A stretch of DNA of 64,000 bases from Stenotrophomonas acidaminiphila. GTDB taxonomy: Bacteria > Pseudomonadota > Gammaproteobacteria > Xanthomonadales > Xanthomonadaceae. Under the pieces are notes generated by a model. It had not been told where the DNA came from and did no database searches. It saw only the letters and a program-made list of their open reading frames with translations. Every line of letters starts with the position of its first letter. Positions within the stretch are counted from its first letter, which is position 1. The stretch spans positions 666,501 through 730,500 of the forward strand of contig CP019797.1 of assembly GCA_002951995.1 (NCBI GenBank). Reading direction: 5' to 3'. Position numbers and translations under genes: made by a program. Shown here piece after piece: positions 12,840 to 31,183 of the stretch.

Positions 12840-12938
12840 CAGGGGTTCCGGTTGGACCAAGGCCAGGCCGGATTATCCGACGATCGGCTATCGTTGCGCA
12901 TCGCCGATACCGTTGCGGACGCACGCATGCATGGATAC

Positions 12939-14171
12939 ATGAGAAACCTTTTCCTGTGCGCCCTGTTGCTGGCGGCGACGCCCGTGCAGGCGGCCACGGC
13001 GCCCGGCAACGGGCCCGAACCCGGCATCGAGGTATTGCTGCGCGAACGCGCCGGCGGGTTGCACGGCAAGCGCATCGGCCTGGTCACCAACATGACCGGC
13101 GTCGACCGCGCGCTGCGCAGCGACATCGACCTGCTGGCCGCGCGCGACGACGTCGAGCTGGTGGCGCTGTTCGGCCCCGAACATGGCGTGCGCGGCGACG
13201 TGCAGGCCGGTGGGCACGTGGATTCGTCGCGCGACGCGGCCACCGGATTGCCGGTGCACAGCCTCTATGGCGAGCACCGCGAACCGACGCCGGAGATGCT
13301 GCGCGGCATCGACCTGCTGTTGTTCGATATCCAGGATGTCGGCGCGCGTTTCTACACCTACCCGTACACCCTGGCCAACGTGCTGCGCGCGGCGCGGCGC
13401 GATGGCATCCCGGTGTGGGTGCTGGACCGGCCCAATCCGGTGGGCGGGCTGCAGGTGGAAGGCCCGGTGCTGGAGCCGGCGCAGGCCTCGTTCGTCGGCA
13501 TGTTCCCGATCCCGGTGCGTCACGGCATGACCATCGGCGAGCTGGCGCGGCTGTTCAACACCGCGTTCGGCATCGGCGCCGATCTGACCGTGGTGCCGAT
13601 GCGCGGCTGGCGGCGCGGCGATGCCGAGCCGGGCGGGGCGATGCCGTGGGTGCCGCCGTCGCCGAACATGCCCACGCGCGACACCGCGCTGGTCTACCTG
13701 GGCACGGCGCTGCTGGAGGGCACCAACGTGTCCGAGGGCCGCGGCACCACGCGCCCGTTCGAGACCCTCGGCGCGCCGTTCGTCGATGCGCGGCAACTGG
13801 CCGATGCGCTCAACGCGCTCGACCTGCCGGGCGTGCGTTTCCGCCCGACCGCGTTCACCCCGAGCTTCTCCAAGCACGCCGGCAAGGCCTGCGGCGGGGT
13901 GCAGATCCACGTCACCGACCGCGACGCCTTCCTGCCGTTCCGCACCGGGCTGGCGGTGGTCAAGACCCTGCACGACCTGTATCCGGACGCGTTCCGCTTC
14001 CAGTCCGATGCGCCGGGCGCGACGCCCGGCTTCTTCGACAAGCTGGCCGGCAATGCCTGGCTGCGCGAGGCGATCGGGCGCGGCGACACGCTCGATGCGA
14101 TGCAGGCGCGCTGGCAGCCGGCGCTGCAGCGTTTCGAGGCGCTGCGCACGCGCTATCTGCTGTACCCGTGA
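12939..14171 (+). CDS. NamZ-like exo-beta-N-acetylmuramidase (DUF1343, GH171)
   Basis: A 410-residue exported protein: signal peptide MRNLFLCALLLAATPVQAAT, then the DUF1343 fold with LVTNMTGVD, the hallmark FGPEHGVRG, DIQDVGARFYTYPYTL, LDRPNPVGG and SEGRGTTRPFE. Members of this family (Bacillus NamZ) cut MurNAc from the non-reducing end of peptidoglycan fragments. Its place between GH20 genes suggests stepwise release of GlcNAc and MurNAc from muropeptides or cell-wall debris; that is inference. An ATG at 12927 is also in frame and would add four residues. It is divergent from GH20 copy 1 and convergent with copy 2. Confidence 0.88.
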   Translation: MRNLFLCALLLAATPVQAATAPGNGPEPGIEVLLRERAGGLHGKRIGLVTNMTGVDRALRSDIDLLAARDDVELVALFGPEHGVRGDVQAGGHVDSSRDAATGLPVHSLYGEHREPTPEMLRGIDLLLFDIQDVGARFYTYPYTLANVLRAARRDGIPVWVLDRPNPVGGLQVEGPVLEPAQASFVGMFPIPVRHGMTIGELARLFNTAFGIGADLTVVPMRGWRRGDAEPGGAMPWVPPSPNMPTRDTALVYLGTALLEGTNVSEGRGTTRPFETLGAPFVDARQLADALNALDLPGVRFRPTAFTPSFSKHAGKACGGVQIHVTDRDAFLPFRTGLAVVKTLHDLYPDAFRFQSDAPGATPGFFDKLAGNAWLREAIGRGDTLDAMQARWQPALQRFEALRTRYLLYP

Positions 14172-14218: not shown

Positions 14219-16566
14219 TCAGTCGCGCGTGCGCAGGGTCGCCTGCTGCAACACCCACATCTGCGGCCGGGTGTCGCCGCTGAAGGTCATGCACAGGTCG
14301 GCGCGACCGCTGGCCGGGACGCGCAGCGGCGCCTCCAGGGTGATGAAGCCATCGGCGTCCGCGGCCTGCGGCAACGGCTGGGACGCCAGCACCGGGCCCT
14401 CGCAGCCATCGCGCACCTCGAACTCGCCATGTGCCGCCACCGCCTTGCGGAAGCCGCGCTTGGCTTCTTCCTCGCGCAGCAGGCCGAAGTTGTAGGGGAT
14501 GCGGCCGGCGCGCACCTGGATGGACGCCACGTCCTGCAGTTGCGCGTCCTCCCACAACCAGCACGGATTGAAGATGGTCACGTCGAAGCTCGCGCGCGGG
14601 CCTTCGGCGGGGGTGTCATCCTCCAGCCGCAGCAGCAGGCGGCCGCCCTGCGGGCACTGCGCCAGGGTCTTGTCGGTGCGGGTCAGCAGCGCGGCGGCGT
14701 CCAGCGTCCATTGGCTCGCGCGGTCGGCCAGCGGCTTGCCGTCGAAGAACGCCGCGGCCTGCAGCTCGGTGGGCACCGGAACGTCCAGCGGCGCGGTGTA
14801 GGCAGGCGACCGCGAGGTCGGCACGCTGCCATCGGTGGTGTAGCGGATGTCGCCATAACCCAGCGGATTGGACAGCTCGACCCGCGCCCGGTTGCCGGCG
14901 CGGTCGTCCTGGCGCTGCATCGCCACCGACAGTGCGGTCTGCCCGTAGGCGATGCCAAGCGCGCGGTAGCGGTGCAGCTGTACCGGCAGGCGTGCGAGGA
15001 AGCCGTCGTAGTCCTTGCGCTCCAGCGGCGTCCACGCGATTTCCGCCAGCGCCGCCATGCGCGGGAACAGGTTGTGCTGCAGCCGCTCCCAGGTGCGGGT
15101 GTGTTCGGTCCACATGTTGGCCTGCACACCGATCACGTGCCGGCGCTGCGCCGCCGGCAACTGCGCCGGCACCGGGTCGAACGCGTAGATCTTCTGCATC
15201 GAGGTGAACTTCGGCCGGCCCGGCGGCTCGTCCGGCAGGTTGGTCTGCAGGAAGTCCAGGTACAGGGTGTTGCCGGGCGACATCACCACGTCGTGGCCAT
15301 GGGTGGCGGCCTCGATGCCGCCTTCGATGCCACGCCAGGACATCACCGTGGCCTGCGGCGGCAGCCCGCCCTCGATGATCTCGTCCCAGCCGATCAGCTT
15401 GCGGTCGCGCGCCTCCAGGAACGCTTCCAGCCGCTTGAGCATGTGCGACTGCAGCGCTTCCTCGTCCTTCAGCCCGAGCCGGCGCATGTGCGCCTGCACC
15501 GCGGGCGATGCCTGCCACTGGTACTTCACCGCCTCGTCGCCGCCGATATGCACGTACGGGCCCGGGAACAGGTCGATCACCTCGGCCAGGATGCCTTCCA
15601 GGAACTGCAGCGTTTCCTCGCGCGGATTGAACAGGTAGGGATTCACGCCCCAGTTGTGCGACGGTTCGGTGGGGCCATCGACCACGCCATGCTCGGGATA
15701 GGCCGCCACCGCCGCCTGGGCGTGGCCGGGTACGTCGATTTCCGGAACGATGGTGATGTGGCGGGCGGCGGCATAGGCCACCACGTCGCGGATCTGCGCC
15801 TGCGTGTAGTGGCCGCAGTAGCGGTTGGGGGAGCCGTCGGCCCTGCGCCCGGCCTCGCCCGGCGGCACGCGGCAGCCGCCGACTTCGGTGAGGCGCGGGT
15901 AGCGCTTGATCTCGATGCGCCAGCCCTGGTCGTCGGTGAGGTGCCAGTGGAAGGTGTTGAGCTTGTGCGTGGCCATCGCGTCGAGCACCGCCTTGATCTG
16001 CTCCACGCTCCAGAAATGCCGCGCCGAATCGAGCATCAGCCCACGCCAGGCGAAACGCGGGGTGTCCTCGATCCGCATCGCCGGCAGCGCCACCGCACTG
16101 GACTGCGGCCCGGCGAGCAGTTGCCACAGCGTCATCGCGCCATTGAACAGCCCGTGTTCGTCACCGGCCTGGACGCTGATGCCGTCGTCGCCGATGTGCA
16201 GCGTGTAGGCCTCCGGCGAGGTGCCGGCGGCTGCGGGCACGATGCGGAACTCGATGCCCGGGCCCTGATCCTGGCCGTCGGCCAGCCGCAGCGGCGTGGT
16301 CCTGGCCAGCAGTTCGGTGAATTGCGTGGCGACGCGACCGGCGGCATCGCCCGGTGCGCGGACCGCGGTGGTCGCATCGACGACGAAGCGGCCCTCGGCC
16401 GGCTGCACCACGGCCGGCAATGGAATCACCGGCGCGCCCTGCACGTCGGCGGCGGCCACGGCCAGTGCGGGCGCGGGGAGGCGCTGGGCGTGCAGCCGGT
16501 GGCAATGGCGGCCGCGGCGAGCAGGGCGGCCGCCATCAGTGTGGCGGCGGTTCGGTTTCGGATCAT
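14219..16566 (-). pseudogene. Beta-N-acetylhexosaminidase lipoprotein, GH20 (copy 2), apparent frameshift near the N-terminus
   Basis: Hydrolase of the first parallel module, about 782 residues when one base is restored. The ATG at 16566 opens a lipoprotein signal peptide (MIRNRTAATLMAAALLAA, then lipobox IATGC), but the frame stops after 46 codons. The catalytic frame (GAPVIPLPAVVQPAEG onward) is joined by adding one C in the run at 16475-16478 or at 16469-16471. It has FHWHLTDDQGWRIEIK, catalytic Asp344-Glu345 in HIGGDEA and the same C-terminal extension as the other copies. Without repair, a GTG at 16459 would give a protein with no export signal, which argues for sequence error. Outer-membrane or periplasmic anchoring separates it from the signal-peptide copies 1 and 3. 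Confidence 0.85.
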
Positions 16567-16656
16567 CGTGACTCCCTGGAACTGGATGGCGGCGTGGCGG
16601 CCCGCGCCGGTGTCCGGGCGGTGGGGCCTGCGACGCGGGCCGCCGGCCGCCACTGT

Positions 16657-16689
16657 AAAAAAAGCGGGCCTGGAAAAGCTCCAGGCCCG
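16657..16689 (-). terminator. Rho-independent terminator between TonB receptor A and GH20 copy 2
   Basis: On the minus strand, a 10-bp stem (CGGGCCTGGA with TCCAGGCCCG, loop of 5) is followed by seven T. It lies after the receptor stop and before the hexosaminidase start within one apparent transcription unit, so it probably lowers GH20 expression relative to the receptor. The second module has the same arrangement. Confidence 0.85.
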
Positions 16690-16732
16690 TTGGAGGAGAA
16701 AGAACGCAATCGGTATTCCTGCAGCTCCGCCC

Positions 16733-19534
16733 TTAGAAGGCGAAGCGCAGCGAGGCCATGTAACGGCGGCCGCTCAGGTAGGCACCGCGGGTGAGCTGTT
16801 CCACGCCCGAGTAGGAGTGGTACTGCTCGTCCAGCAGGTTCATGCCTTCCAGGCCGACGGACAGGTTTTCGTTGATCCGGAAGGCGATGGACGCATCCAG
16901 CGAGGCATAGTCCATGGTCCACAGCTGGCGGCCGGCGCTGACGTTGGTGAAGTACTTGTCACGCCAGCCGTAGGTGACGCGCGCGGTCCAGGTGTCGTTC
17001 TCGAAGAACGGGCTGATGTTGAACTGGTTCTTCGAGTTGAACGGCAGCGGGCGGCCGCCGGTGGCTTCGCCGTCGGAGTAGGTGTAGTTGGCGACGATGC
17101 CGAAGCCAAGGCCGAAGTTCTGCTGCCAGGCCAGCGAATAACCCTTGATCTTCGCGTCGCCGGCATTGCGCGGACGGTCCACCAGGTAGGTGTCGTTCTT
17201 GTTCTGGTTCTGGTTCCAGTGCGTCTCCGGGGTGGACTCGGTGAGGATGTAGTCGGCCACGTCGCGGTAGAAGATCGAGCCGGCGACGATGGCGTTCTCC
17301 GAGAAGTACCACTCGGCCGAGAAATCCACGTTGGTGGACTGGTACGGCTTGAGGTTCGGGTTGCCGCCGCCGCCGGTCAGCGCGGTGTCGGACAGCCACA
17401 GGTAGGAGGAGATGTCCGTGTAGTTCGGGCGGGCGATGGTCTTGGCCACGGACGCACGCAGCACCAGCGACTCGGTGGCGTCGTACACCAGGTTCAGGTT
17501 CGGCAGCACGTTGTTGTACTTGTTCTTCTTCACCACCGGGTCGTACGACGCCGCCAGCTTCTCGGCCGACCATTCCGGCTTGGTACAGCCGGCCAGGCCG
17601 GTGTTGCATTCGTAGCTGCCCGACTCCAGGTCGGTGCGCACGTAGCGCACGCCGACGTTGCCGCGCAGCTTGTCGAAGCTGAAATCGGCCTGCACGTACG
17701 CCGCGCCGATGTCCTCGTTGATCGACCAGTTGTTGCGCGCGAACTCCTCGGCGCTGAACGGCGAGACGACCGGCATGGTCTGCCACGGTGCCAGCCACTT
17801 GCCGCTGCTGATGTACTCGGCCAGCTTCCAGCCATCGATGGTGAAGCGCTTGCCCAGGTCACCGTAGCCGCTGAACCCGTTGAGGTAGTTGCCGGGCAGC
17901 TCGCGCGGATCGAACTGCGAGGCCTTGGCGTCGCCATAGGTGGCTACCGCGGCCAGGCCGATGCCCTGCTGGACCTGGCTGGTCTCGTGCTTGCGCTGCT
18001 TGTAGCCGAAGCGGACCAGGTAGACCGGCGAGTCGAGCTTGATGCCGAAGTCGACCTGGCCGTAGGTTTCCTTGTCGACGGTCGGCTTCTCGACCAGGTT
18101 GCCGCCCCAGCCGGTATTCCAGCCGGGCTTGGACGGGTCACCGCCCCAGCCGCCGTCCATCTGGAACTGGTCCGGGTTCAGGAACGGATTGCTGCCGGTG
18201 AAGGTGACGCTGCCGGGATTGCCCGGGGCGTCGGCGATGGACCAGGTGTAGTCGGTGCGCGCCAGAAACTCGCCGAACACCTGCTTCGGGCCGCCGTCGG
18301 CCTTGGTGCGGCCGATATGGGTGGACGCGAACCAGCGCTCGTCGTTCCAGTCGAGCTTGACGTCGTAGGTCGACGACTCGACGTTGGCGCGGCGGTTCTG
18401 CAGGTCGAACACCACCAGCCCGTTCTTGTGGCTGGCACTGGTGATCAGCCCGTCCTTGACGGTGATGTCGCTCAGCGTCTTCAGGCTGTTCCAGGTGTTG
18501 CCCTGGTGGGTGAACATCGACTGCGCCATGTGGTCGAAGTTGGCGTCGATCTTCAGCGCGTTCAACTCGATGTTCATCTGTTCCACCGGCTTGAACTGCA
18601 GCGCCAGCGAGTAGGTCTTGCGCTCGCGCTGCTGCTCGAAGAAGTGCGCGCTGGTGGAGTTGGGGCCGACCGCGTTCGGGTTGGCGTACAGGGTTTCGGC
18701 GCAGGTGCCGGTACAGGTGGCCGGCAGCGTCGGCTGCACGCCGTTGACCGGCGGCTTGGACCAGTCCGGCGGCAGGTTGGTCACCGAGCCCGGGGCACCG
18801 CCGACGCCGGCGATGTAGTCCTTGGCCCGCACGATGCCGTAGGACTCGATGCCGTCGCGGCGGATGCTCTCGTTGGAGGCCTGGGCCGAGACGATCACGC
18901 CGAAGCTGCCGGCGTCGTTCTTCCACGCGAACGCGGCCGAGGCGTTGGGATCGGTCTTCTCGACGCGGTCGTTGCGGCCATAGCTGACGCGGCCGGACAG
19001 GCTGACCTTCTCCGGCATGTCCAGCGGCTTGCGGGTGGAGACGATCACGGTGCCGCCGATCGAGCCTTCATCGATGCGCGCTTCCGGCGACTTGAACACT
19101 TCCACCTTGCCGACCAGCTCGGGCGCCAGCAGCGAGTAGTTGAAGGTGCGGGTCGGGAAGTCGGACATGTTCCAGTCGCCGGAGGCGATGGACTGGCCGT
19201 TGAGCAGGGTGCGGTTCAACGCCGGATCGGTGCCGAGGATCGAGACCTTCTCGCCCTGGCCGTAGGCGCGGTCGATGGTCACGCCGGGGATGATGGTCAT
19301 CGCCTCGGCCACGTTGGTGGCCGGGAACTTGCCCACGTCCTCGGCGGTGATGACGTCGACGATGGCGTCGGCATTGCGCTTGGTCTCCAGCGACTGCTGC
19401 AGGCTGGCGCGGATGCCGGTGACGACGACGCGGTCGAGGTCGGTGGCCTCCTTCTTGCCGGCCTCCTGCGCGTGCGCGGAAAAGCTCAGGCAGGTGACGA
19501 TGGCGGCGGACAGTACGGACTTGCGGTACCTCAT
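16733..19534 (-). CDS. TonB-dependent receptor A (GlcNAc/chito-oligosaccharide uptake)
   Basis: A 933-residue outer-membrane receptor. Signal peptide MRYRKSVLSAAIVTCLSFSAHAQ, plug domain with VVVTGIRASLQQSLETKRNA and ITAEDVGKFPATNVAEAM, then the beta-barrel ending in RRYMASLRFAF with the C-terminal Phe needed for barrel assembly. The plug sequence is the Caulobacter/Xanthomonas carbohydrate-receptor type without an FecA-like signalling extension. The start at 19534 is supported by AGGAG 8 bases upstream; earlier in-frame ATGs have none. It follows nagK A by 114 bp and precedes GH20 copy 2. The substrate (GlcNAc oligomers or GlcNAc glycans) is inferred from the neighbours. Confidence 0.92.
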   Translation of the reverse strand: MRYRKSVLSAAIVTCLSFSAHAQEAGKKEATDLDRVVVTGIRASLQQSLETKRNADAIVDVITAEDVGKFPATNVAEAMTIIPGVTIDRAYGQGEKVSILGTDPALNRTLLNGQSIASGDWNMSDFPTRTFNYSLLAPELVGKVEVFKSPEARIDEGSIGGTVIVSTRKPLDMPEKVSLSGRVSYGRNDRVEKTDPNASAAFAWKNDAGSFGVIVSAQASNESIRRDGIESYGIVRAKDYIAGVGGAPGSVTNLPPDWSKPPVNGVQPTLPATCTGTCAETLYANPNAVGPNSTSAHFFEQQRERKTYSLALQFKPVEQMNIELNALKIDANFDHMAQSMFTHQGNTWNSLKTLSDITVKDGLITSASHKNGLVVFDLQNRRANVESSTYDVKLDWNDERWFASTHIGRTKADGGPKQVFGEFLARTDYTWSIADAPGNPGSVTFTGSNPFLNPDQFQMDGGWGGDPSKPGWNTGWGGNLVEKPTVDKETYGQVDFGIKLDSPVYLVRFGYKQRKHETSQVQQGIGLAAVATYGDAKASQFDPRELPGNYLNGFSGYGDLGKRFTIDGWKLAEYISSGKWLAPWQTMPVVSPFSAEEFARNNWSINEDIGAAYVQADFSFDKLRGNVGVRYVRTDLESGSYECNTGLAGCTKPEWSAEKLAASYDPVVKKNKYNNVLPNLNLVYDATESLVLRASVAKTIARPNYTDISSYLWLSDTALTGGGGNPNLKPYQSTNVDFSAEWYFSENAIVAGSIFYRDVADYILTESTPETHWNQNQNKNDTYLVDRPRNAGDAKIKGYSLAWQQNFGLGFGIVANYTYSDGEATGGRPLPFNSKNQFNISPFFENDTWTARVTYGWRDKYFTNVSAGRQLWTMDYASLDASIAFRINENLSVGLEGMNLLDEQYHSYSGVEQLTRGAYLSGRRYMASLRFAF

Positions 19535-19648
19535 GATGTCTCTCCTCATCATTGGCGTGATTGTGGGTTGAACCGCGGTTGCTGGGGGTGCCGGTGCGCG
19601 GGCGCGTGCCCGTGCGGCGGTGTCGTGGCTGCGTGGGTGGGAGCGTGC

Positions 19649-20665
19649 TCAGGTGCTGCGGTGCTGCAGGTACCAACTGGCTGCGCCGATGACGCCCAGT
19701 TGCCCGTGCTCGACCAGTTTCACGGGGATGCGCTGCAGCGCCTTGGCCATGGGCCCCTTGTTGAGGAACCGCTCGACGAAGGTGCTGCCGATGAGGAACG
19801 GGCCGAGCTTGGGCAGGATGCCGCCGGCCAGGTAGATGCCGCCCTGCACGCCGTAGAGCAGGGCCATGTCGCCGATGGTGGAGCCGAGGATTCCGCAGAA
19901 CAGCTCCAGGGTCTGGACCGCGAGCGGGTCGCTGCCCTCGCAGGCGGCGGCGCTGACCGCGTCGGGGGTGGCGTGCACGGGCGCGGTGCCGCGCACCGCG
20001 CACAGGGCGTTGTAGAGGTTGAGCAGGCCGGGCCCGGACAGCGCGCCGTGCTCGATGGAGACATGGCTGCGGTTGCGCAGCATGTGCTGCAGCACGGCCA
20101 TTTCCAGTTCGGTGCCGGCGGCCAGCGCGGCCTGCCCGGCTTCGGTGGCGAGCACGACCGAGCGCTCGCCGACGGGGATCCAGAGCGCGGCGCCCAGGCC
20201 GGTGCCGGGGCCGACGACGAGGGTGGGGCCGCGCGGCGCCTGCGCCGGGCCGGTGAGCTGCAGCACCTGGCTGCCGTCGATATGGGCGGCGGCGTGGGCG
20301 ACGGCCTCGAAATCGTTGACCAGGTGCACGGCCTCGAAGCCGAGGTCGTCGCGGATGCGGCTGGCCGACAGCGGCCACGGCAGGTTGGCCGAGATCACGC
20401 TGCCGTCGGCCAGCGCGTAGCCGGCGCTGGCGATGACGCATTCGCGCGCGCCGGGGGCGTGGGCGTGGAAGTCGGCCAGGATCTGGCCCAGCCCGGCGTG
20501 GTCGGCGCAGCGGTAGCGGCGGTAGGCGATCACGTCGACGGCCTGGCCCGGCGTGGCACGGACCAGCCCCACCCGCACATGGGTGCCGCCGACATCGGCG
20601 GCGATCAGCGGCACGGCCGGCGCGGCGATGGGCTGGTGCTGGGTTGGACTGAAGCTGGCGACCAC
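19649..20665 (-). CDS. N-acetylglucosamine kinase A, glucokinase family
   Basis: Cytoplasmic sugar kinase of 338 residues that would convert GlcNAc to GlcNAc-6-phosphate; the family (NagK-II of xanthomonads) belongs to the Glk group and not to ROK. ATP site IAADVGGTHVRVG, substrate motif IASAGYALADG, catalytic Asp in LVNDFEAVAHA, then VVGPGTGLGAAL and IYLAGGILPKLG. I chose the GTG at 20665 because GGGGAA lies just upstream and the second copy starts in the same way. A TTG at 20755 would place the operator inside the gene. Residues from about 75 to the end are nearly identical to copy B at DNA level. Confidence 0.85.
   Translation of the reverse strand: MVASFSPTQHQPIAAPAVPLIAADVGGTHVRVGLVRATPGQAVDVIAYRRYRCADHAGLGQILADFHAHAPGARECVIASAGYALADGSVISANLPWPLSASRIRDDLGFEAVHLVNDFEAVAHAAAHIDGSQVLQLTGPAQAPRGPTLVVGPGTGLGAALWIPVGERSVVLATEAGQAALAAGTELEMAVLQHMLRNRSHVSIEHGALSGPGLLNLYNALCAVRGTAPVHATPDAVSAAACEGSDPLAVQTLELFCGILGSTIGDMALLYGVQGGIYLAGGILPKLGPFLIGSTFVERFLNKGPMAKALQRIPVKLVEHGQLGVIGAASWYLQHRST
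19671..20440. repeat. 770-bp near-identical tract, copy A (in nagK A)
   Basis: Matches 26204-26973 at a constant offset of 6533 bp with only about nine single-base differences that I could count, i.e. roughly 99 percent identity. Identity stops abruptly in the 5' third of the gene and just inside the 3' end. This is the mark of recent gene conversion or partial duplication. Confidence 0.9.
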
Positions 20666-20728
20666 GCGGTTCCCCGGAGTGTCTGCAGTTCCATGGGGAG
20701 CTGCGGCATCCGGAGTTTCGGCGTTGCC

Positions 20729-20742
20729 TGACAACGATGTCA
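20729..20742. promoter_or_regulatory. Putative NagQ operator, module A
   Basis: TGACAACGATGTCA, an imperfect palindrome identical to the module B site and one of three related copies in the window. It lies 64 bp before the nagK A start. Read on the minus strand, it includes TTGACA, which could double as a -35 element, so bound repressor would block polymerase. Confidence 0.75.
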
Positions 20743-20964
20743 AGCTGTTCTGCAAAAAATTTTCAGATCAACAATGCCGCCAGAATTTCAAATAACCCAA
20801 TGATTGCAATGGCAAAAATTATTTCATTCGAAACGATGCTTCAAATTTGGAGGGTGCGTAGGACCAGTCTGTTGTATTCGTGAAATTTTTTCGCATCGCC
20901 CGGGCCTGGATCGTTGTCCGCGCCGGGGGCCGGCACCGCAGCGGCCTGCGTGGTCCGTCCCCAT

Positions 20965-20994
20965 GAAGAAAAGGGCCACCGTTTCCGGTGGCCC
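20965..20994 (-). terminator. Rho-independent terminator after GH20 copy 3
   Basis: On the minus strand a 9-bp stem (GGGCCACCG with CGGTGGCCC, 4-base loop) is followed by TTTTCTTC. It lies 12 bp after the stop of the module B hexosaminidase and closes that transcription unit. Confidence 0.82.
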
Positions 20995-21005
20995 CTGGGG
21001 CGTGC

Positions 21006-23306
21006 TCAGTGCGTGGTTTCCAGTTGTATCCAGTCCAGCGTCCACAGCGCCGGTCGGGTGTCGCCGGTGAAACGGATGCACAGGTCGGCGCGCGGCGGCA
21101 CCGCGTGCAGTGGCGCGCGCAGCTCCACGAACCCGTCGGCGCCCGGCGCCGCCGGCAGCGGCACCGACACCAGCGGCGTGCCCTTGCAGTCGGCCAGGAT
21201 CTCCAGCTCGCCATGCGCGGTGCGGGCGGGCGCGAAGCGGCGGCTGGGTTCGTCGTGGGCGAGCTGGAAGTTGTACGGGATGCGCCCGGCGCGGACCTTC
21301 ACCGCGCTCACCCCCGCCAGGTCCGCGTCCTGCCACAGCCAGCACGGGCTGAAGATGTTGACGTTGAACACCGCGCGCTCGCCGTCGGCGGGGCCGTCGT
21401 CCTCCAGGCGCAACAGCAGCTTGCCGTCGCCGGGGCAGAGGCCGAGCCGGGTGTCGTCGCGGGTAAGCAGCGAATCGGCGGTGACTGCGAAGCGGCTGGC
21501 CGCGGCAAGCGGCTTGCCGTCGAAGAACGCCGCGGCGCGCACCTCGGCCGGCAGCCTGACCTGCAGCGGCTGTACGTAGCGCGGCGACGCGGCGCTCACC
21601 GCGCTGCCGTCCAGCGTGTAATGCACCGCGTAGCCGAGCGGATTGTCGAGCGTGACCGTGGCGGTGCCGGCGCTGCGGTCGCCCTGGTCGTGCATGTCCA
21701 CCTGGAACGGCGTCTGCGCGTAGTGGATGCCCATCGCGCGGTAGCGCTGCAGATGGCGCGGCAGGCGCTGCAGGAACCCATCGAAATCGCGCTTGTCCGC
21801 CGGACTCCAGCCGGTTTCGGCCACCGCGGCCAGGCGCGGGAACAGGTTGTGCTCCAGATTGCGGTCGTTGCGCGTGTGCTCGGTGAACATGTTGGCCTGC
21901 AGGCCGAGGATGTGCTGGCGCTTGTCGGCGGCCAGTTCCGCGGGCACCGGCTCGAACCCGTAGGCCTTGCGCAGCTCGATGGTCGTCGGCCGGCCCGGCG
22001 GCTCGTCCGGCGAGGACGTCTGCAGGTAGTCCATGTACATGTGGGTGACCGGCGACATGATCACGTCGTGGCCTTCGCTGGCCGCCTTCAGGCCGCCTTC
22101 GGTGCCGCGCCAGGACATCACCGTGGCTTCGGGCGGCAGGCCGCCCTCGAGGATTTCGTCCCAGCCGATCAGGCGGCGGTCGTGCTGCTCCAGGAACTTC
22201 TCCAGGCGCTTGATCATGTGGCTCTGCATTTCCATCTCGTCCTTCAGGCCGAGCCGGCGCATGTGCTCCTGCACGCGGGGGGAAGCGATCCACTGGTCCT
22301 TGACCGCCTCGTCGCCACCGACGTGCACGTACCTGGCCGGGAACATGTCGATCACTTCCAGCAGCACGTTTTCCAGGAACTGCAGGGTGCTCTCTTCGGT
22401 GTTGAACAGGTTGGGGAACACCCCCCACTGGTTGTCGATGGCCAGCTTCCGGCCGGTCACGCCCAGCTCGGGGTAGGCGGCGATGGCCGCGGTGGCGTGG
22501 CCGGGGACGTCGATCTCCGGGATCACCTGGATGTGGCGCTCGGCGGCGTACGCCACGATCTCGCGGATCTGCGCCTGCGTGTAGTAACCGCAGTAGCGGC
22601 GTGGCTCGCCGGTGGCCGGGTCGCGGCCGGCGTCGCCCAGCGACACCCGGCAGCTGCCCACCTCGGTGAGCTTCGGGTAGCGCTTGATCTCCATGCGCCA
22701 GCCCTGGTCGTCGGTGAGGTGCCAGTGGAAGGTGTTGAGCTTGTGCTGGGCCATGGCATCGAGCAGTTTCCTGATCTCGTCCATGCTCTGGAAATGGCGG
22801 GCCGAATCCAGCATCAGCCCGCGCCAGACGAAGCGCGGCGCATCGGTGATGGTGGCGGCGGCGACCTCGCCGGGGGTCTGGTCGGTCAGCAGCTGCGCGG
22901 CGGTGACGGCGCCGTAGAACAGGCCGCGGTCATCGCTGGCACTGACATCGATGCCGGTATTGGAGACCTTCAGCGTGTAGGCCTCGGCCGGCTTGGTCGC
23001 CGACGGGTCCAGGCGGAAGCGGATCTGCGCCTTGCTGGCGTTCTCGGCCACCGCCAGCGTGGGCCCGCCGTTCTGCCTGAGCAGCTCGACGAACTGGGCG
23101 GCGACGCGGCGCGAGGCTTCGTCATTGCCGCCGACCCGGGCGGCATCCTTCAGTACGAAGTCCTTGCCCCCGTCGGCCTGGTAACTGGCGGGCAGCGGGA
23201 TCAGCGACGGTGCGCCGGCGGCGTGGACCTGCACGGCGGTGAGGCCGAGCAGCAGGCAACTGCCGAGCAGGGTTGCGCGACGACGCGCACGGAGGGACTT
23301 CGTCAT
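21006..23306 (-). CDS. Beta-N-acetylhexosaminidase, GH20 (copy 3)
   Basis: Exported hydrolase of module B, 766 residues, with a signal peptide (RRRATLLGSCLLLGLTAVQ, then VHAAG). Domain 2 covers the first 150 residues; the catalytic barrel has WRGLMLDSARHFQ, FHWHLTDDQGWRMEIK, the catalytic pair Asp332-Glu333 in HVGGDEA and MSWRGTEGG. A C-terminal region with CLWRD-like Cys/Trp features (SPCWLWQDADL) is conserved in all three copies. Unlike copy 2 it has no lipobox and may be released into the periplasm or secreted. It is separated from the receptor B gene by a terminator hairpin and is followed by a second terminator. Confidence 0.92.
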   Translation of the reverse strand: MTKSLRARRRATLLGSCLLLGLTAVQVHAAGAPSLIPLPASYQADGGKDFVLKDAARVGGNDEASRRVAAQFVELLRQNGGPTLAVAENASKAQIRFRLDPSATKPAEAYTLKVSNTGIDVSASDDRGLFYGAVTAAQLLTDQTPGEVAAATITDAPRFVWRGLMLDSARHFQSMDEIRKLLDAMAQHKLNTFHWHLTDDQGWRMEIKRYPKLTEVGSCRVSLGDAGRDPATGEPRRYCGYYTQAQIREIVAYAAERHIQVIPEIDVPGHATAAIAAYPELGVTGRKLAIDNQWGVFPNLFNTEESTLQFLENVLLEVIDMFPARYVHVGGDEAVKDQWIASPRVQEHMRRLGLKDEMEMQSHMIKRLEKFLEQHDRRLIGWDEILEGGLPPEATVMSWRGTEGGLKAASEGHDVIMSPVTHMYMDYLQTSSPDEPPGRPTTIELRKAYGFEPVPAELAADKRQHILGLQANMFTEHTRNDRNLEHNLFPRLAAVAETGWSPADKRDFDGFLQRLPRHLQRYRAMGIHYAQTPFQVDMHDQGDRSAGTATVTLDNPLGYAVHYTLDGSAVSAASPRYVQPLQVRLPAEVRAAAFFDGKPLAAASRFAVTADSLLTRDDTRLGLCPGDGKLLLRLEDDGPADGERAVFNVNIFSPCWLWQDADLAGVSAVKVRAGRIPYNFQLAHDEPSRRFAPARTAHGELEILADCKGTPLVSVPLPAAPGADGFVELRAPLHAVPPRADLCIRFTGDTRPALWTLDWIQLETTH

Positions 23307-23341
23307 CGGGGCGGAGCTCCTGTGTTTTCTGGAGGGTACTC

Positions 23342-23378
23342 AAAAAAACGCCGGGCCCGGAATGCTCCAGGCCCGGCG
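23342..23378 (-). terminator. Rho-independent terminator between TonB receptor B and GH20 copy 3
   Basis: On the minus strand a 9-bp outer stem (CGCCGGGCC with GGCCCGGCG), extended by an inner GGA/TCC pairing, is followed by seven T. Same position and partly the same sequence as the module A hairpin (16657-16689), so both modules appear to attenuate GH20 relative to the receptor. Confidence 0.85.
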
Positions 23379-23415
23379 CGTCATGCTGCCCGGCGGTGCG
23401 GCGTGCCGGGATGGA

Positions 23416-26091
23416 TCAGTACTTGAAGCGGAAGTTCAGGTAGTACTGGCGGCCGTTGCTGTAGAACGCGCTGGGAATGCTCGCGCTCTGGTAGTACTTC
23501 AGCGACGGGTTGTTGAGGTTCAGCGCATCGAAGCTGACGCTCATCCAGTCGGTGGCCTTGTAGCTCAGCGACAGCGACAGGGTGCCGAAATCGTCCTGGT
23601 AGTACGGGTTGGCACCCTTCAGGCCGATCAGGAACGCCGAGCGGTAGGTGTAGCTCACCCGCGCGCCGAAGGAGTCGTTCTCGAAGTAGCCACCGACGTT
23701 GTAGGTGTTCTTCGAGGTGCCGAGCAGGTTGTTGCTGCCGTCCGCCCAGGTGTGCGAGGTGCTGCCGTCGGCGTAGGTGTAGTTGGCGTTGACGCCGAAG
23801 TTGTCGCCGATCGGCTGTTCGTAGGCGAGTTCGACGCCGGTCACCTTGCCGTTGGAGTTGACCGGCACCGCGACCTGGTATTCCTCCAGCTTGTTGGTCA
23901 GCTCGCTGAACAGCATCTGCTTCTCGGTGCCGAAGGCGACATAGTCCTTCAGGTTCATCGAGTAGGCGCCGACCGACAGCAGGCCGCGCGGCATGAAGTA
24001 CCACTCGAGGTTGGCGTCGAAGTTGGTCGAGACCACCGGGTTGAGCTTCGGGTTGCCGCCGCTGCCGGTGCGGCTCAGGTCCGAGCCGCTCGACGCGGCG
24101 CCCAGCGCCGAGTAGTCCGGCAGCGTCTGGGTCTGCGAGGCGGCGAAGCGGAACACCAGGTCGTCGGACAGATCGAACTTCAGGTTCGCGCTCGGCAGCA
24201 CGCGGTCGTGCTTGTTGTTGAAGGACAGGGCCTTCCAGGCGCCGAACAGGCTGCTGACGTCGGCATTGGCCGGGTTGCTGACGGCCTGGTAGGTGTCGAT
24301 GTCCTGGTCGATGTTGACGTAACGCAGGCCGACGTTGCCGCTCCAGCGGTCACCGGAGAAATTGGCCTGCACGTAGCCGGCGAAGTTCTTTTCCTCGACC
24401 TTCCACTCGGCGCCATAGTTGTGGCGGCCGGTGGGGCCGTCATTGCCCGACAGCCAGGTGGAGTTGTTGAGGATGGCTTCCTTCAGCGCCGCCGGGGTGA
24501 AGTACCACAGGTTGCGCGGGAAGCTGCCGCCGATGTTGCTGGCGAAACCGCCCGGATACGACGCGGTGGCGCCGTTCTTGAGCGCGCTCCAGATATCGCC
24601 CGGCGACGCACCTTCCGGCGACAGCGCTTCGCGCTTGTGGTCGGCGTAGCGGATGCCGAAGTCGATCGAGTTCAGCGTGCCGTTGTCGAAGTACTGGTTG
24701 AAGTCGGCGGTGAACCACTTCTCCTTGTCCAGCGCGGTGACCTCCTGGTTGCCCCAGGTGCCGAAGCTGGTCACGTCGCTCGGGTCGGTGCCGCCGCCCA
24801 GGCTCCAGTCGACCGGCGAGCCGTTGCCATGGGTGGCCCAGCTTGCGCCTCCATTGGCGGCCAGCGTCACCTCGGCGATGAACTGGCGCGGGGTCGAGCC
24901 TTCGCCCTTGGTGGAGCCGGCCTGGAACTTGGCGCCGAGCCGGTCGTTGACCTGCCAGTCGGCGTCGAGCGTGACGTAGTTGCTCTTTGCCGTGGCCTCG
25001 CGGTAGATCATGTCGTACACGGCATAGTTGGTGCCGGGCTTGCCCGCGTACGTCGCGTTGGTCAGCACGCCGTCCTTGACCACGTAGCCGGGCTTGGGCG
25101 ACTCGCTGTTGGCGAAGTTGCCGCCCCACAGCATGAAGTTGCGGTTGTAGTTGTTGGCGTCCATCTTCGAGCTGAAGCCTTCCACGCCCAGGGTCAGGTT
25201 GTCCGCCGGCTTGAACTGCAGCGAAAGCAGGCCGCCCTTGCGCTCGCGGGTCTGCTCGAACAGGGTCGAGCCGAGCAGCGCCGGCGCGTAGACGCCGATC
25301 AGGTCCGGGTTGTTCAGGCCCACTTCGTTGAGGTTGCCGTTGCCGTCCCTGCCGGTGATCTGGAAGAAGCCGGAGGGCAGCTCCTGGGCTTCGCGGCGCA
25401 GTTCACGCTTCTGGCTGAACGCCTGCACCATGACGCCGAAGGTGTTGTCGTCGTTCTTGTAGTTGAACAGGCCGGCCAGCTGCGGGTCGTTGGACTTGGC
25501 CTGGTCCGAGCGCACCGCGCCGATCGAGGCCTCGGCGGTGATCTGCTTGGCGAATTCCAGCGGCTTGCGGGTGATGATGTTGACCGTGCCGGTGGTGCCG
25601 CCGTCCTGCAGCTTGGCCTGCGAGGACTTGTTCACTTCCACCGAGCGCACCAGTTCCGACGGCAGCAGGGTGTAGCTGACGCTGCGGCCGACGTTGCTGC
25701 CCTGGCTGAGCACGAACCAGTCGGCCGAGCCGACGCTGTGGCCGTTGATCAGGGTTTGGGTCAGGCTCGGGCTGGTGCCGCGCAGGCTGACGCGGTCGGC
25801 TTCGTCGAAGCCGCCTTCGTCGGCGCTGGACGAGCTGATGTTCACGCCCGGCAGGCGCTGCAGGGTGTCGGCGACGTTGTGCGCCGGCAGCTTGCCGACA
25901 TCTTCGGCGGTGACGACCTCGACGCGTGCGTTGGCTTCGCGCTTGGTGTCCAGCGACTTTTCCATCGAGCCGCGGATGCCGGTGACGGTGACGGTGTCCA
26001 GGTCGGTCGCCTTGGGCTGCGCTTCCTGCGCGTGGGCGCTGAAGGCAAGGCAGCCGGCGATGGCTGCCGAAAGCAGGGTCTTGCGGTGCAT
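23416..26091 (-). CDS. TonB-dependent receptor B (amino-sugar uptake)
   Basis: An 891-residue outer-membrane receptor with signal peptide MHRKTLLSAAIAGCLAFSAHAQ, plug domain (TVTVTGIRGSMEKSLDTKRE, VVTAEDVGKLPAHNVADTL, RVSLRGTSPSLTQTL) and a beta-barrel ending in YYLNFRFKY. It is clearly related to receptor A at the N-terminus but the barrels differ in length and sequence, so the two may import different GlcNAc-containing ligands. GAGGAG lies 8 bases before the ATG at 26091, as in receptor A, which decides the start. It follows nagK B by 60 bp. Substrate assignment rests on context. Confidence 0.92.
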   Translation of the reverse strand: MHRKTLLSAAIAGCLAFSAHAQEAQPKATDLDTVTVTGIRGSMEKSLDTKREANARVEVVTAEDVGKLPAHNVADTLQRLPGVNISSSSADEGGFDEADRVSLRGTSPSLTQTLINGHSVGSADWFVLSQGSNVGRSVSYTLLPSELVRSVEVNKSSQAKLQDGGTTGTVNIITRKPLEFAKQITAEASIGAVRSDQAKSNDPQLAGLFNYKNDDNTFGVMVQAFSQKRELRREAQELPSGFFQITGRDGNGNLNEVGLNNPDLIGVYAPALLGSTLFEQTRERKGGLLSLQFKPADNLTLGVEGFSSKMDANNYNRNFMLWGGNFANSESPKPGYVVKDGVLTNATYAGKPGTNYAVYDMIYREATAKSNYVTLDADWQVNDRLGAKFQAGSTKGEGSTPRQFIAEVTLAANGGASWATHGNGSPVDWSLGGGTDPSDVTSFGTWGNQEVTALDKEKWFTADFNQYFDNGTLNSIDFGIRYADHKREALSPEGASPGDIWSALKNGATASYPGGFASNIGGSFPRNLWYFTPAALKEAILNNSTWLSGNDGPTGRHNYGAEWKVEEKNFAGYVQANFSGDRWSGNVGLRYVNIDQDIDTYQAVSNPANADVSSLFGAWKALSFNNKHDRVLPSANLKFDLSDDLVFRFAASQTQTLPDYSALGAASSGSDLSRTGSGGNPKLNPVVSTNFDANLEWYFMPRGLLSVGAYSMNLKDYVAFGTEKQMLFSELTNKLEEYQVAVPVNSNGKVTGVELAYEQPIGDNFGVNANYTYADGSTSHTWADGSNNLLGTSKNTYNVGGYFENDSFGARVSYTYRSAFLIGLKGANPYYQDDFGTLSLSLSYKATDWMSVSFDALNLNNPSLKYYQSASIPSAFYSNGRQYYLNFRFKY

Positions 26092-26151
26092 GTTGTCTCT
26101 CCTCAACATCGGAATGAAAGGCACGGGCGTGCCGCTTTACGTCTGGTCTTG

Positions 26152-27204
26152 CTATTGCATCTGTTGCTTATGCTGCGAGGCTTGCGTGGCCAACTTTTCC
26201 AGATACCAACTGGCTGCGCCGATGACGCCCAGTTGCCCGTGCTCGACCAGTTTCACGGGGATGCGCTGCAGCGCCCTGGCCATGGGTCCCTTGTTGAGGA
26301 ACCGCTCGACGAAGGTGCTGCCGATGAGGAACGGGCCGAGCTTGGGCAGGATGCCGCCGGCCAGGTAGATGCCGCCCTGCACGCCGTAGAGCAGGGCCAT
26401 GTCGCCGATGGTGGAGCCAAGGATTCCGCAGAACAGCTCCAGGGTCTGGACCGCGAGCGGGTCGCTGCCCTCGCAGGCGGCGGCGCTGACCGCGTCGGGG
26501 GTGGCGTGCACGGGCGCGGTGCCGCGCACCGCGCACAGGGCGTTGTAGAGGTTGAGCAGGCCGGGCCCGGACAGCGCGCCGTGCTCGATGGAGACATGGC
26601 TGCGGTTGCGCAGCATGTGCTGCAGCACGGCCATTTCCAGTTCGGTGCCGGCGGCCAGCGCGGCCTGCCCGGCTTCGGTGGCGAGCACGACCGAGCGCTC
26701 GCCGACGGGGATCCAGAGCGCGGCGCCCAGGCCGGTGCCGGGGCCGACGACGAGGGTGGGGCCGCGCGGCGCCTGCGCCGGGCCGGTGAGCTGCAGCACC
26801 AGGCTGCCGTCGATGTGGGCGGCGGCGTGGGCGACGGCCTCGAAATCGTTGACCAGGTGCACGGCCTCGAAGCCGAGGTCGTCGCGGATGCGGCTGGCCG
26901 ACAGCGGCCACGGCAGATTGGCCGAGATCACGTTGCCGTCGGCCAACGCGTAGCCGGCGCTGGCGATGACGCAGTGCGCCACCTGCGGGTGGTGGCTGGC
27001 GAAGTCGGACAGGATCGCGCTCAGGCTCGGATGGTCGCCGCAGCGGTACTTGCGGTAGGACAGGATCTCGATGGTCCCGCCATCGCTGCCGCCGGCGCGG
27101 ATCAGGCCGACGCGGACATGGGTGCCGCCGACGTCGGCGGCCATGAAAGGTAGAGACGCGCTGTCGAGCGGAAAGGTCTGCAGTGTGGGGGCGGCAGCGG
27201 TCAC
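26152..27204 (-). CDS. N-acetylglucosamine kinase B, glucokinase family
   Basis: Second NagK-like kinase, 350 residues, GTG start with GGGAAA upstream. ATP site MAADVGGTHVRVG, then IASAGYALADG, LVNDFEAVAHA, GPGTGLGAAL and YLAGGILPKLG as in copy A. The N-terminal 70 residues and the last 15 (EKLATQASQHKQQMQ) differ from copy A, while the middle is nearly identical in DNA. Leading gene of module B, with a putative NagQ operator 68 bp upstream. Xanthomonads carry two NagK-II genes; whether both act on GlcNAc or one prefers another sugar such as MurNAc or glucose cannot be told from sequence. Confidence 0.87.
   Translation of the reverse strand: MTAAAPTLQTFPLDSASLPFMAADVGGTHVRVGLIRAGGSDGGTIEILSYRKYRCGDHPSLSAILSDFASHHPQVAHCVIASAGYALADGNVISANLPWPLSASRIRDDLGFEAVHLVNDFEAVAHAAAHIDGSLVLQLTGPAQAPRGPTLVVGPGTGLGAALWIPVGERSVVLATEAGQAALAAGTELEMAVLQHMLRNRSHVSIEHGALSGPGLLNLYNALCAVRGTAPVHATPDAVSAAACEGSDPLAVQTLELFCGILGSTIGDMALLYGVQGGIYLAGGILPKLGPFLIGSTFVERFLNKGPMARALQRIPVKLVEHGQLGVIGAASWYLEKLATQASQHKQQMQ
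26204..26973. repeat. 770-bp near-identical tract, copy B (in nagK B)
   Basis: Direct-repeat partner of 19671-20440, same orientation, offset 6533 bp. Recombination between the two copies would delete or duplicate receptor B, GH20 copy 3 and the module A promoter. The tract ends sharply at both sides. Confidence 0.9.
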
Positions 27205-27271: not shown

Positions 27272-27285
27272 TGACAACGATGTCA
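27272..27285. promoter_or_regulatory. Putative NagQ operator, module B
   Basis: TGACAACGATGTCA, identical to the module A site, 68 bp before the nagK B start. It overlaps the TTGACA candidate -35 box of the minus-strand promoter. Confidence 0.75.
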
Positions 27286-27504: not shown

Positions 27505-27518
27505 TGACAACGTTGTTC
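27505..27518. promoter_or_regulatory. Putative NagQ operator before nagP
   Basis: TGACAACGTTGTTC, with the fully symmetric core GACAACGTTGT but one weaker outer half, 58 bp before the nagP ATG. Xanthomonas NagQ boxes are palindromes of this kind. The LacI regulator encoded two genes downstream is the likely ligand-controlled binder. Confidence 0.75.
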
Positions 27519-27575: not shown

Positions 27576-28859
27576 ATGTCCGCTGTTCCCGCTTCCACGC
27601 CGCGCACCGGCATGGCGTCGTCGATCGCCATCGTCGGCGGCCTGTTCTTCATCCTTGGATTCTGTACCTGGATCAACGGGCCGCTGATCACCTTCGTCAA
27701 GCTCGCCTTCGAGGTCAGCGAGGTGTCAGCGTTCCTGGTGCTGATGGTGTTCTACCTGTCCTACTTCTTCCTGGCGCTGCCGGCGTCGCTGATCCTCAAC
27801 CGCACCGGCATGAAGAAGGGCCTGGCGCTGAGCCTGGCGGTGATGGCGGTGGGGGCCATGATGTTCGGCCAGTTCGCGACGCAGCGCTGGTTCGCCGGTG
27901 CGCTGGGCGGCCTGTTCGTGATCGGCGGCGGCATGGCGCTGCTGCAGACCGCGGTGAACCCCTACATCTCGATCCTCGGTCCGATCGAGGGCGCGGCCCA
28001 GCGCATCGCGCTGATGGGCATCTGCAACAAGGTCGCGGGCATCCTGGCGCCGATCGTGATCGGTTCGCTGGTGCTGCACGGCATCGGTGATCTCGACGCC
28101 CAGGTGCAGGTCGCGGACGCGGCCACCAAGGCGCAGCTGCTCAGCGATTTCGCCGCCAAGATCCATACCCCGTACATGGTGATCGCCGGGGTGCTGCTGC
28201 TGGTGGCGGTGGGCGTGCTGTTCTCGCCGCTGCCGGAAGTGCGCGCGGCCGAGGCCAACGCCGTGGCCGCCGACGGCGCCGCGGAAAAGCACAGCATCTT
28301 CCAGTTCCCGCACCTGTGGCTGGGCGTACTGTGTCTGTTCGTCTACGTCGGCGCCGAGGTGATGGCCGGCGACGCCATCGGCACCTACGGCCATGGCTTC
28401 GACCTGCCGCTGGACCAGACCAAGCTGTTCACCTCGTATACGCTGACGGCGATGCTGGTCGGCTATCTGGTCGGCCTGGTGCTGATCCCGCGCTTCATCT
28501 CGCAGGAGCGCTGGCTGGCGGTCTCGGCGGCGCTCGGCGTGCTGTTCAGCGTGGGCGCGTACGTCACCCACGGCTACGTCTCGGTAGGCTTCGTGGCCGC
28601 GCTGGGCTTCGCCAACGCGATGATGTGGCCGGCGATCTTCCCGCTGGCGATCCGCGGCCTGGGCCGCTTCACCCAGACCGGCTCGGCGCTGCTGGTGATG
28701 GGCATCGCCGGCGGCGCGATCATTCCGCAGGCGTTCGCGGTGCTCAAGCAGCATTTCGACTTCCAGCTGGTGTTCGCCGCGCTGATGGTGCCGTGCTACC
28801 TGTACATCCTCTATTTCGCTGTCCGCGGGCAGCGTGCGGGCCGCGCGCATGGCGGCTGA
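27576..28859 (+). CDS. nagP: N-acetylglucosamine MFS transporter NagP
   Basis: Inner-membrane sugar:proton symporter of 427 residues with about 12 hydrophobic segments, in the FHS (fucose/glucose-galactose) branch of the major facilitator superfamily. Segments include IAIVGGLFFILGFCTWINGPL near the start, FLVLMVFYLSYFFLALPASL, and NRTGMKKGLALSL with the basic loop typical of the fold. NPYISILGP and the late motif NAMMWPAIFPLAIRGLGRFT are characteristic. It is first in the catabolic operon, preceded by a good promoter and an operator, and followed by the regulator and GlcNAc enzymes. Function is assigned from family and context. Confidence 0.9.
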   Translation: MSAVPASTPRTGMASSIAIVGGLFFILGFCTWINGPLITFVKLAFEVSEVSAFLVLMVFYLSYFFLALPASLILNRTGMKKGLALSLAVMAVGAMMFGQFATQRWFAGALGGLFVIGGGMALLQTAVNPYISILGPIEGAAQRIALMGICNKVAGILAPIVIGSLVLHGIGDLDAQVQVADAATKAQLLSDFAAKIHTPYMVIAGVLLLVAVGVLFSPLPEVRAAEANAVAADGAAEKHSIFQFPHLWLGVLCLFVYVGAEVMAGDAIGTYGHGFDLPLDQTKLFTSYTLTAMLVGYLVGLVLIPRFISQERWLAVSAALGVLFSVGAYVTHGYVSVGFVAALGFANAMMWPAIFPLAIRGLGRFTQTGSALLVMGIAGGAIIPQAFAVLKQHFDFQLVFAALMVPCYLYILYFAVRGQRAGRAHGG

Positions 28860-28902
28860 ATCGAGCATCATGGCGGCCAGTCAGTCCAGCCAGGAAACCG
28901 TC

Positions 28903-29978: not shown

Positions 29979-29982
29979 AACC

Positions 29983-31008: not shown

Positions 31009-31183
31009 GCGCCGGTCCCCGGCCTGCGCGGCGGGCCGCGCGTCGCAGGGGGCGGCACAGGCCGCCGCCGGCTCACCGCGCAGGCGCGCGCGACCTGCCG
31101 CCGCCGCCATCGAACGGGCAGGGACGCTGCCGTTGTTCATCCTCCCGGCGCAGGGCTGCGGGAGGGCATCCGGAACCAAGAAG

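Follow-up and report, generated by a model that had tools for sequence, protein, structure and literature searches.

The 64,000-nucleotide stretch analyzed here (contig CP019797.1, positions 666,501 to 730,500; hereafter the window) comes from a single-contig, 3.66-Mb genome near Stenotrophomonas acidaminiphila and contains two tandem minus-strand units, module B followed by module A. Each is composed of an operator, a probable N-acetylglucosamine (GlcNAc) kinase gene (nagK1 in B, nagK2 in A), a TonB-dependent receptor gene, a terminator-like hairpin and a glycoside hydrolase family 20 (GH20) gene. We consider it probable that the two are GlcNAc-uptake operons that behave as recombining slots, in which the kinase copies are converted, the receptor bodies are exchanged and the GH20 genes represent separate old lineages. 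The order and strand of the modules agree with an original prediction made from this DNA, which explained them by duplication followed by ligand specialization. That prediction overlooked that the two nagK genes, although diverged over the first ~230 bp, share 99% identity across the next 769 bp. All substrates and enzyme functions named below are assigned from sequence.

From codon 78 on, the two kinase genes have 8 differences in 769 bp, whereas 86 of 225 aligned bp differ before it (62% identity). In the window genome, four-fold degenerate sites follow the same division, with differences at 2 of 166 sites in the 3' part and at 9 of 24 in the 5' part. Across all 28 pairings of eight genomes, nagK1 orthologues of different species differ at no fewer than 17 of 161 four-fold sites of the 3' part; the pair formed by the window and S. 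acidaminiphila lies exactly at 17/161. Separate trees of the 5' and 3' parts (36 genes from 18 tandem genomes) are in conflict. In the 5' tree, nagK1 mostly groups with nagK1 and nagK2 with nagK2, and approximately unbiased (AU) tests rejected a sister relationship of the two copies in seven of eight genomes (p-AU 0.034 to 1e-54; window 6e-11). In the 3' tree, copies from the same genome are sisters in the window, X. chitinilytica, SY1 and the acidaminiphila, nitritireducens, mori and humi genomes, and the AU test rejected a clade of the nagK1 genes of four genomes (4e-53) as well as one of their nagK2 genes (2e-26). The paralogues are thus closer to each other within a genome than to their orthologues, silent sites included, and conflicting trees lie inside one gene, as is characteristic of gene conversion. 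On these comparisons, the nagK copies were homogenized repeatedly by gene conversion from about codon 78 to near the stop, and their near-identity is attributed to this process rather than to recent duplication. There is presumably a selective reason for keeping the kinase uniform.

Seven of the 15 tandem Stenotrophomonas-type genomes show conversion, their two copies differing at 4 to 31 positions of the 3' part; they are the window, acidaminiphila, nitritireducens, mori, X. chitinilytica, Iso1 and humi. SY1, with 82 differences, is a case of partial or older conversion. Two loci stand outside the 15: that of G054 (L125) is tandem but has nagK2 in two open reading frames (ORFs), and that of S. 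pictorum (L020) has the B side only. Several observations count against conversion as a general explanation. Seven of the 15 genomes show none (133-157 differences in 763-766 bp), nor do three Pseudoxanthomonas nagK pairs by the same measure (151-188 differences). At silent sites, the two copies are less alike in Iso1 (17/156) and S. humi (12/154), and the Iso1 copies, sisters in another 3'-part tree, are unresolved next to humi in the 36-gene 3' tree. In X. chitinilytica and Pseudoxanthomonas RX3 the copies are sisters in the 5' part too, which makes X. chitinilytica the weakest conversion case; both pairs could be younger duplications.

If this held everywhere, nagK would have been duplicated recently and independently in each genome, without gene conversion. 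The sister copies of X. chitinilytica and RX3 in both parts agree with such a history, as do the 3' parts, which are sisters in eight Stenotrophomonas-type genomes in one tree and in seven of these in the 36-gene tree. However, the genomes share orthologous slots, operators and flanking genes, and the 5' parts group by slot in the AU tests above. Independent duplication, which we regard as highly improbable, would account only for X. chitinilytica and for RX3, whose copies are far more divergent. That selection on the kinase protein alone produced the identity is extremely improbable: the kinase is constrained, and identity between species is also high around nt 781-840, but the four-fold sites are nearly identical as well and the identity falls sharply at nt 232. 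An assembly artefact, with the copies collapsed or mis-joined, is barely plausible. Several genes are split or fused in this assembly, but six further genome records repeat the pattern (three bear LDJ accessions and may be one project), and the 5' parts and flanks of nagK1 and nagK2 are distinct. We also considered, and rejected, a fixed conversion boundary as a special site. In six genomes with conversion or partial conversion the maximum-likelihood boundary falls at nt 229-232, in S. nitritireducens at nt 256 and in X. chitinilytica at nt 163, but in the unconverted terrae and PS02298 it also lies at nt 232-238, so the boundary probably only marks the end of the fast-evolving 5' part.

In the receptors, the pattern of change is of another kind. 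Receptors A and B share 32% amino acid identity, and both belong to TIGR01782. In a tree of 94 receptors they fall into two strongly supported lineages, each with Luteimonas, Pseudoxanthomonas and Stenotrophomonas members, and a single clade of the A and B receptors of the window and S. acidaminiphila was rejected (AU test, 1e-34). When slots are defined by position, all 14 B-slot genes start with an ATGTTG...CAACATG leader (GTGTTG in X. chitinilytica) and MHRK, and all 16 A-slot genes with an ATGATG...CATCATG leader and MRYRK. The bodies behind these starts do not follow the slots. In the body trees, in which slots were labelled by start motif (the labels agree with gene positions), one clade of B-slot bodies was rejected (2e-79), as was one of A-slot bodies (5e-5). 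In SY1 and G055, the body behind the B leader clusters with receptors from S. tumulicola, S. pennii, S. chelatiphaga and [Pseudomonas] boreopolis (support 100); in S. nitritireducens, S. terrae, G051 and G081, the body in the A slot clusters with Pseudoxanthomonas receptors (support 99). Identity profiles locate the change within the gene. The S. nitritireducens receptor matches receptor A of the window at 92-100% per 25-residue stretch over its first 75 residues and at 15-88% over the remainder. Between SY1 and ATCM1_4, nagK1 and the leader share 81-98% DNA identity per 100 bp, the ~2.5-kb receptor body is unalignable, and identity then returns to 78-98% through GH20B.

As read from these alignments, the receptor body is replaced inside a constant frame, while the slot-specific 5' end (leader hairpin and signal peptide) stays. 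Two results speak against this step: the AU test on the 160-nt 5' end did not reject a grouping of SY1 and G055 with the kin of the putative donors (p 0.135), and support for the B slot in the 160-nt tree is only 56/95. Since this tree is weak alone, the body-exchange step rests mainly on the identity profiles. It is plausible that the two receptors take different ligands. A search for a template for the barrel-loop comparison proposed with the original prediction found no solved GlcNAc-oligomer receptor, and the solved receptors that matched did so weakly, in the plug region. Two Stenotrophomonas loci carry an extra A-lineage receptor after receptor A, without a nagK of its own (L121, 13444; L122, 12723).

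The lineages also bear on the duplication named in the original prediction, by which an ancestor gained a second copy of a whole module (operator, nagK, receptor and GH20), with later divergence of its receptors and hydrolases toward different ligands. The strong divergence of receptors and hydrolases (59% amino acid identity between GH20A and GH20B) was correctly noted there. The modules are indeed alike in gene order, operator, type of terminator and receptor leader, and the nagK genes, clearly paralogues, do look like a duplicate pair. The receptors and GH20 genes do not, because each receptor lineage spans three genera and the single clade is rejected as given above, and because GH20A lies outside the group formed by GH20B and the single GH20 of other Stenotrophomonas. 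The GH20A proteins of the window, PS02298, G081 and G054 form a clade of their own, and a joint group of GH20A and GH20B of the tandem clade was rejected (AU test, 0.003; the GH20 trees leave out GH20A of L014, L122 and L124). As a recent event, duplication of the module is refuted; before the family radiation it could have taken place, and overall we regard it as unlikely. The receptor tree carries a warning of long branches meeting at A/B, so that the two lineages may or may not be each other's nearest receptor relatives.

The leader itself forms a hairpin at the receptor start. The ribosome sites of both receptors share AGGAGAGA, in line with the prediction. Starts were available for 67 receptors (98 rows minus 28 in which no start was found and L008, L068 and L069); all six leader pairs form in 45 of them, against 0.2/67 in shuffled sequences. 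One change affects both sides of the stem (ATGATG/CATCAT to ATGTTG/CAACAT). A role as a regulatory RNA was considered and rejected: z-scores are weak (-1.6 and -0.5), the module B hairpin is not the predicted minimum-free-energy structure of the 46-nt stretch, and an Rfam search with the hairpin matched no family. Its conservation is mostly explained by shared descent of the receptor 5' ends. Among 14 genes with a start found on L081-L110, the hairpin occurs only in the two nag receptors, and L081 and L104 have other short stems at the start; not all of the 14 are receptors (L086 contributes GH20B), and most of the 39 TIGR01782 matches of the genome lie outside this set. Separately, a small GGCAC...GTGCC hairpin (26120-26133) lies in the gap between nagK1 and receptor B; several Stenotrophomonas relatives also have it in the B slot.

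Both module operators are exactly TGACANCGNTGTCA, consistent with the shared operator claimed earlier. We surveyed the upstream regions of 84 nagK genes from 69 loci and the window. The best site was TGACANCGNTGTCA in every case, with 12 of 12 positions matching in 83 genes and 11 of 12 in one, whereas the best score in 1680 letter-shuffled upstream regions was 10, reached in <1%. Exact TTGACANCGTTGTCA occurs in 87 of 91 Stenotrophomonas genomes, against 0/91 for a reversed control. The 3.66-Mb genome has only three exact operator sites, and 11 sites with one mismatch allowed; the reversed pattern, used as a control, gave 2. Because the preceding T completes a TTGACA hexamer, the operator is likely to overlap the -35 region; a search for sigma-70-like promoter pairs found 0, with 0.8 in shuffles. 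The third exact site (G000:C1:1643788-1643801; 1501-1514 of L003 and 5789-5802 of L126) lies between glucose-6-phosphate dehydrogenase-like (zwf-like) and ABC ATPase-like genes, named by eye, near a glucokinase gene. The regulator may thus reach central sugar metabolism too, or a second LacI protein may use the site.

The modules adjoin a divergent plus-strand cluster of nagP, a LacI-type regulator gene joined to a NagB-II-like deaminase gene, nagA and a NagX-like gene, where the equivalog models for NagP, NagB-II and NagX matched below their cut-offs. A palindromic operator common to the kinase/receptor operons stands together with a LacI-family regulator beside nag genes, as in a NagR/NagI regulon. 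In S. maltophilia, the LacI repressor NagI is reported to control the nagP operon, with relief by GlcNAc-6-phosphate (GlcNAc-6P; PMC13055268, seen in part), and comparative genomics of two Xanthomonas species predicted a NagR regulon holding a GlcNAc kinase and TonB receptors (PMC5343134, likewise). With these precedents, the shared operator and the LacI gene next door, one LacI-type regulator for both modules is likely, so that this part of the original prediction remains probable; the identity of the regulator and its inducer in this species are assigned by analogy. In the proposed scheme, the neighboring LacI regulator probably represses both operons until GlcNAc-6P appears. The GH20 enzymes would free GlcNAc, the two receptors would carry different GlcNAc-bearing ligands over the outer membrane, NagP would move GlcNAc inward, and NagK would make GlcNAc-6P, at once substrate and inducer.

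A G+C-rich hairpin with a T run behind it stands in both receptor-to-GH20 gaps, in agreement with the intercistronic hairpin described previously. Such terminator-like hairpins suggest that the GH20 genes are expressed at a lower level or from promoters of their own. They were found at only 37 of 63 receptor-to-GH20 junctions (and at 0 of 84 nagK ends), by a detector of our own used without a shuffle control, which limits how general this arrangement can be. A split in localization, with a lipoprotein GH20A and a soluble GH20B, is not general and was rejected: a lipobox-like Cys occurs among the GH20A proteins of L014 and L123 only, is absent from the printed starts of L023, L122, L124 and L125, and is also present in GH20B of L022 and in the GH20 of L042. 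A third GH20 gene (10542-12860) and a gene for a NamZ exo-beta-N-acetylmuramidase (13047-14171) adjoin module A and would fit use of peptidoglycan fragments.

Some genes are interrupted in this assembly. The GH20A gene opens with 107 nt, from a signal-peptide-like ATG, that are read in a different frame from the catalytic ORF, a point that the original prediction overlooked; GH20A of S. acidaminiphila (L014) has an in-frame, lipoprotein-like start, and the break is probably an assembly error. The LacI regulator and the NagB-II-like deaminase form one 724-residue ORF here, whereas they are separate ORFs in every relative in which both were found, and compared with four aligned relatives the ORF differs by one base in the length of a C-rich run. 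We considered a bifunctional fusion protein and judged an assembly error likelier, since a glk and two GH20 genes of the genome are also split across frames (G000:C1:1641360-1642306, 87308-88338 and 1303247-1304167); a real fusion is possible. The split genes point to indel errors in the assembly or true pseudogenes.

The features of the locus are listed in Table 1. A TonB receptor, a hydrolase, an inner-membrane transporter and a regulator stand together, which is the composition of a locus for carbohydrate utilization by TonB-dependent receptors (CUT locus). The two nagK products score 507.8 and 510.8 bits against NF009073 (PRK12408; cut-off 240), a subfamily that we take to be of the NagK-II type, and their designation as GlcNAc kinases derives from gene context. 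The GTG start codons claimed for both genes were found. The S. acidaminiphila locus (L014) is close to the window, with 96% identity in nagK1, 97% in receptor B and 99% in receptor A. A plasmid search with nagK2 and a PADLOC search with the two receptors gave no match.

Table 1. Coordinates of the tandem nag modules and adjoining genes in the window
Feature	Coordinates	Strand	Remarks
Operator, module B	27272-27285		TGACATCGTTGTCA on minus strand; exact match; one extra T gives TTGACA -35-like box
Operator-like site 5' of nagP	27505-27518		2 mismatches
nagK1	26152-27204	-	GTG start at 27204; glucokinase-fold sugar kinase, probable GlcNAc kinase; PF02685, PRK12408 subfamily above cut-off
Gene-conversion tract of nagK1	26205-26973	-	769 bp, 8 differences from nagK2
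Leader hairpin, receptor B	26090-26109	-	ATGTTG-AGGAGAGA-CAACAT; ribosome site in loop, start codon in stem
TonB-dependent receptor B	23416-26091	-	TIGR01782 620.7 bits, PF00593, PF07715; probable start, ORF listed from 26124
Terminator-like hairpin and T run, receptor B/GH20B gap	23348-23379	-	Folding z -3.4
GH20B, beta-N-acetylhexosaminidase	21006-23306	-	PF00728; Sec-like signal peptide by eye; best solved chain by sequence 6q63
Operator, module A	20729-20742		Exact match
nagK2	19649-20665	-	GTG at 20665 by alignment to nagK1; PF02685; ORF open further upstream
Gene-conversion tract of nagK2	19672-20440	-	
Leader hairpin, receptor A	19533-19552	-	ATGATG-AGGAGAGA-CATCAT
TonB-dependent receptor A	16733-19534	-	TIGR01782 656.8 bits; probable start, ORF listed from 19552
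Terminator-like hairpin and T run, receptor A/GH20A gap	16665-16689	-	Folding z -1.2
GH20A catalytic ORF	14219-16459	-	PF00728; signal-peptide part (ATG 16566) out of frame in this assembly
nagP, major facilitator superfamily sugar permease, probably GlcNAc	27576-28859	+	gluP subfamily above cut-off; NagP_SO3503 350 bits, cut-off 625
LacI-type regulator (NagR/NagI-like) and NagB-II-like deaminase, one ORF	28834-31008	+	PF00356, PF13377, PF01380; NagB_SO3506 349.5 bits, cut-off 430
nagA, GlcNAc-6P deacetylase	31133-32323	+	TIGR00221 above cut-off

The distribution of nagK was examined in the genus and the family. Most of the 91 Stenotrophomonas genomes carry a relative of nagK, with 62 to 100% identity to nagK1 and mostly directly 3' of the operator, among the matches listed. 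Three nagK-type matches at E 1e-60 were found in 16 of the 91; among the matches listed, these are two cluster copies (the second partial in G054) and a glucokinase at 44-48%, and most other genomes of the genus have two, a cluster copy at 62-67% and a glucokinase at 44-50%. In a family sample of 119 genomes, 36 had a nagK match at E 1e-105, and two copies within 15 kb were present in the window's genome, G071 and G149. Three Pseudoxanthomonas loci (L036, L042 and L065) have the order nagK-receptor B-nagK-receptor A-GH20, without the middle GH20; this could be an older version of the tandem locus, or a reduced one.

A more tentative proposal, which we put forward as possible, is that the tandem nag locus is a standing site of receptor exchange, where flanking homology lets incoming DNA replace the receptor body only. 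The upstream arm would comprise the converted nagK, leader, signal peptide and TonB box, and the downstream arm the terminator and GH20; operator, kinase and targeting signals would stay while the body is swapped. Conversion of nagK would keep the upstream arm usable in both slots, and selection would drive the swaps, either through phages and bacteriocins that exploit TonB receptors or through a changing supply of glycans. Recombination between the nagK tracts would also remove module B in one step. Independently of this proposal, recombination at the locus does two opposite jobs, keeping kinase and control signals uniform and letting the surface receptor change wholesale. This could offer soil and water bacteria a route to a new glycan range or to phage escape with regulation kept.

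Finally, we compared the locus with known systems. The titles listed by a literature search included none on nagK gene conversion, receptor exchange or the hairpin, subscription literature being mostly out of reach. The GlcNAc locus of Boulanger 2010 (via PMC3826837 and PMC13055268) likewise has several TonB receptors and two cytoplasmic NagK kinases; the available parts of these two accounts mention neither kinase gene conversion nor slot-specific receptor leaders. In Xanthomonas, a LacI-type NagR is similarly predicted over a GlcNAc kinase and TonB receptors, but according to the accessible part of that study (PMC5343134) the GntR-type NagQ controls nagAB and nagP, whereas here a LacI gene lies inside the nagP-nagB-nagA cluster. 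The nagPIBAF operon of S. maltophilia (PMC13055268, as far as available) has the same nagP-LacI-nagB-nagA order and a repressor that answers to GlcNAc-6P; TonB is not mentioned in the main text of that paper, whereas both modules here have TonB receptors. The NagK of S. maltophilia, Smlt4435, is 24% identical to NagK-IIA and is another kinase than the one described here, and about half of the kinase activity is left without it (same source, within the part available). As relatives of nagK occur in most Stenotrophomonas genomes searched, mostly behind the operator among the matches listed, our comparison suggests nagK as a candidate for this residual GlcNAc kinase activity. A known parallel to the kinase pair is concerted evolution among paralogous genes of bacteria, tufA and tufB for example (PMC6053082, available in part), in which paralogues are likewise closer within a genome than orthologues are, synonymous sites included. 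The main text of that survey does not mention a kinase, and the cases it describes, in the part available, are ongoing and span the full gene length, whereas here part of nagK is spared and the neighboring receptors differ.

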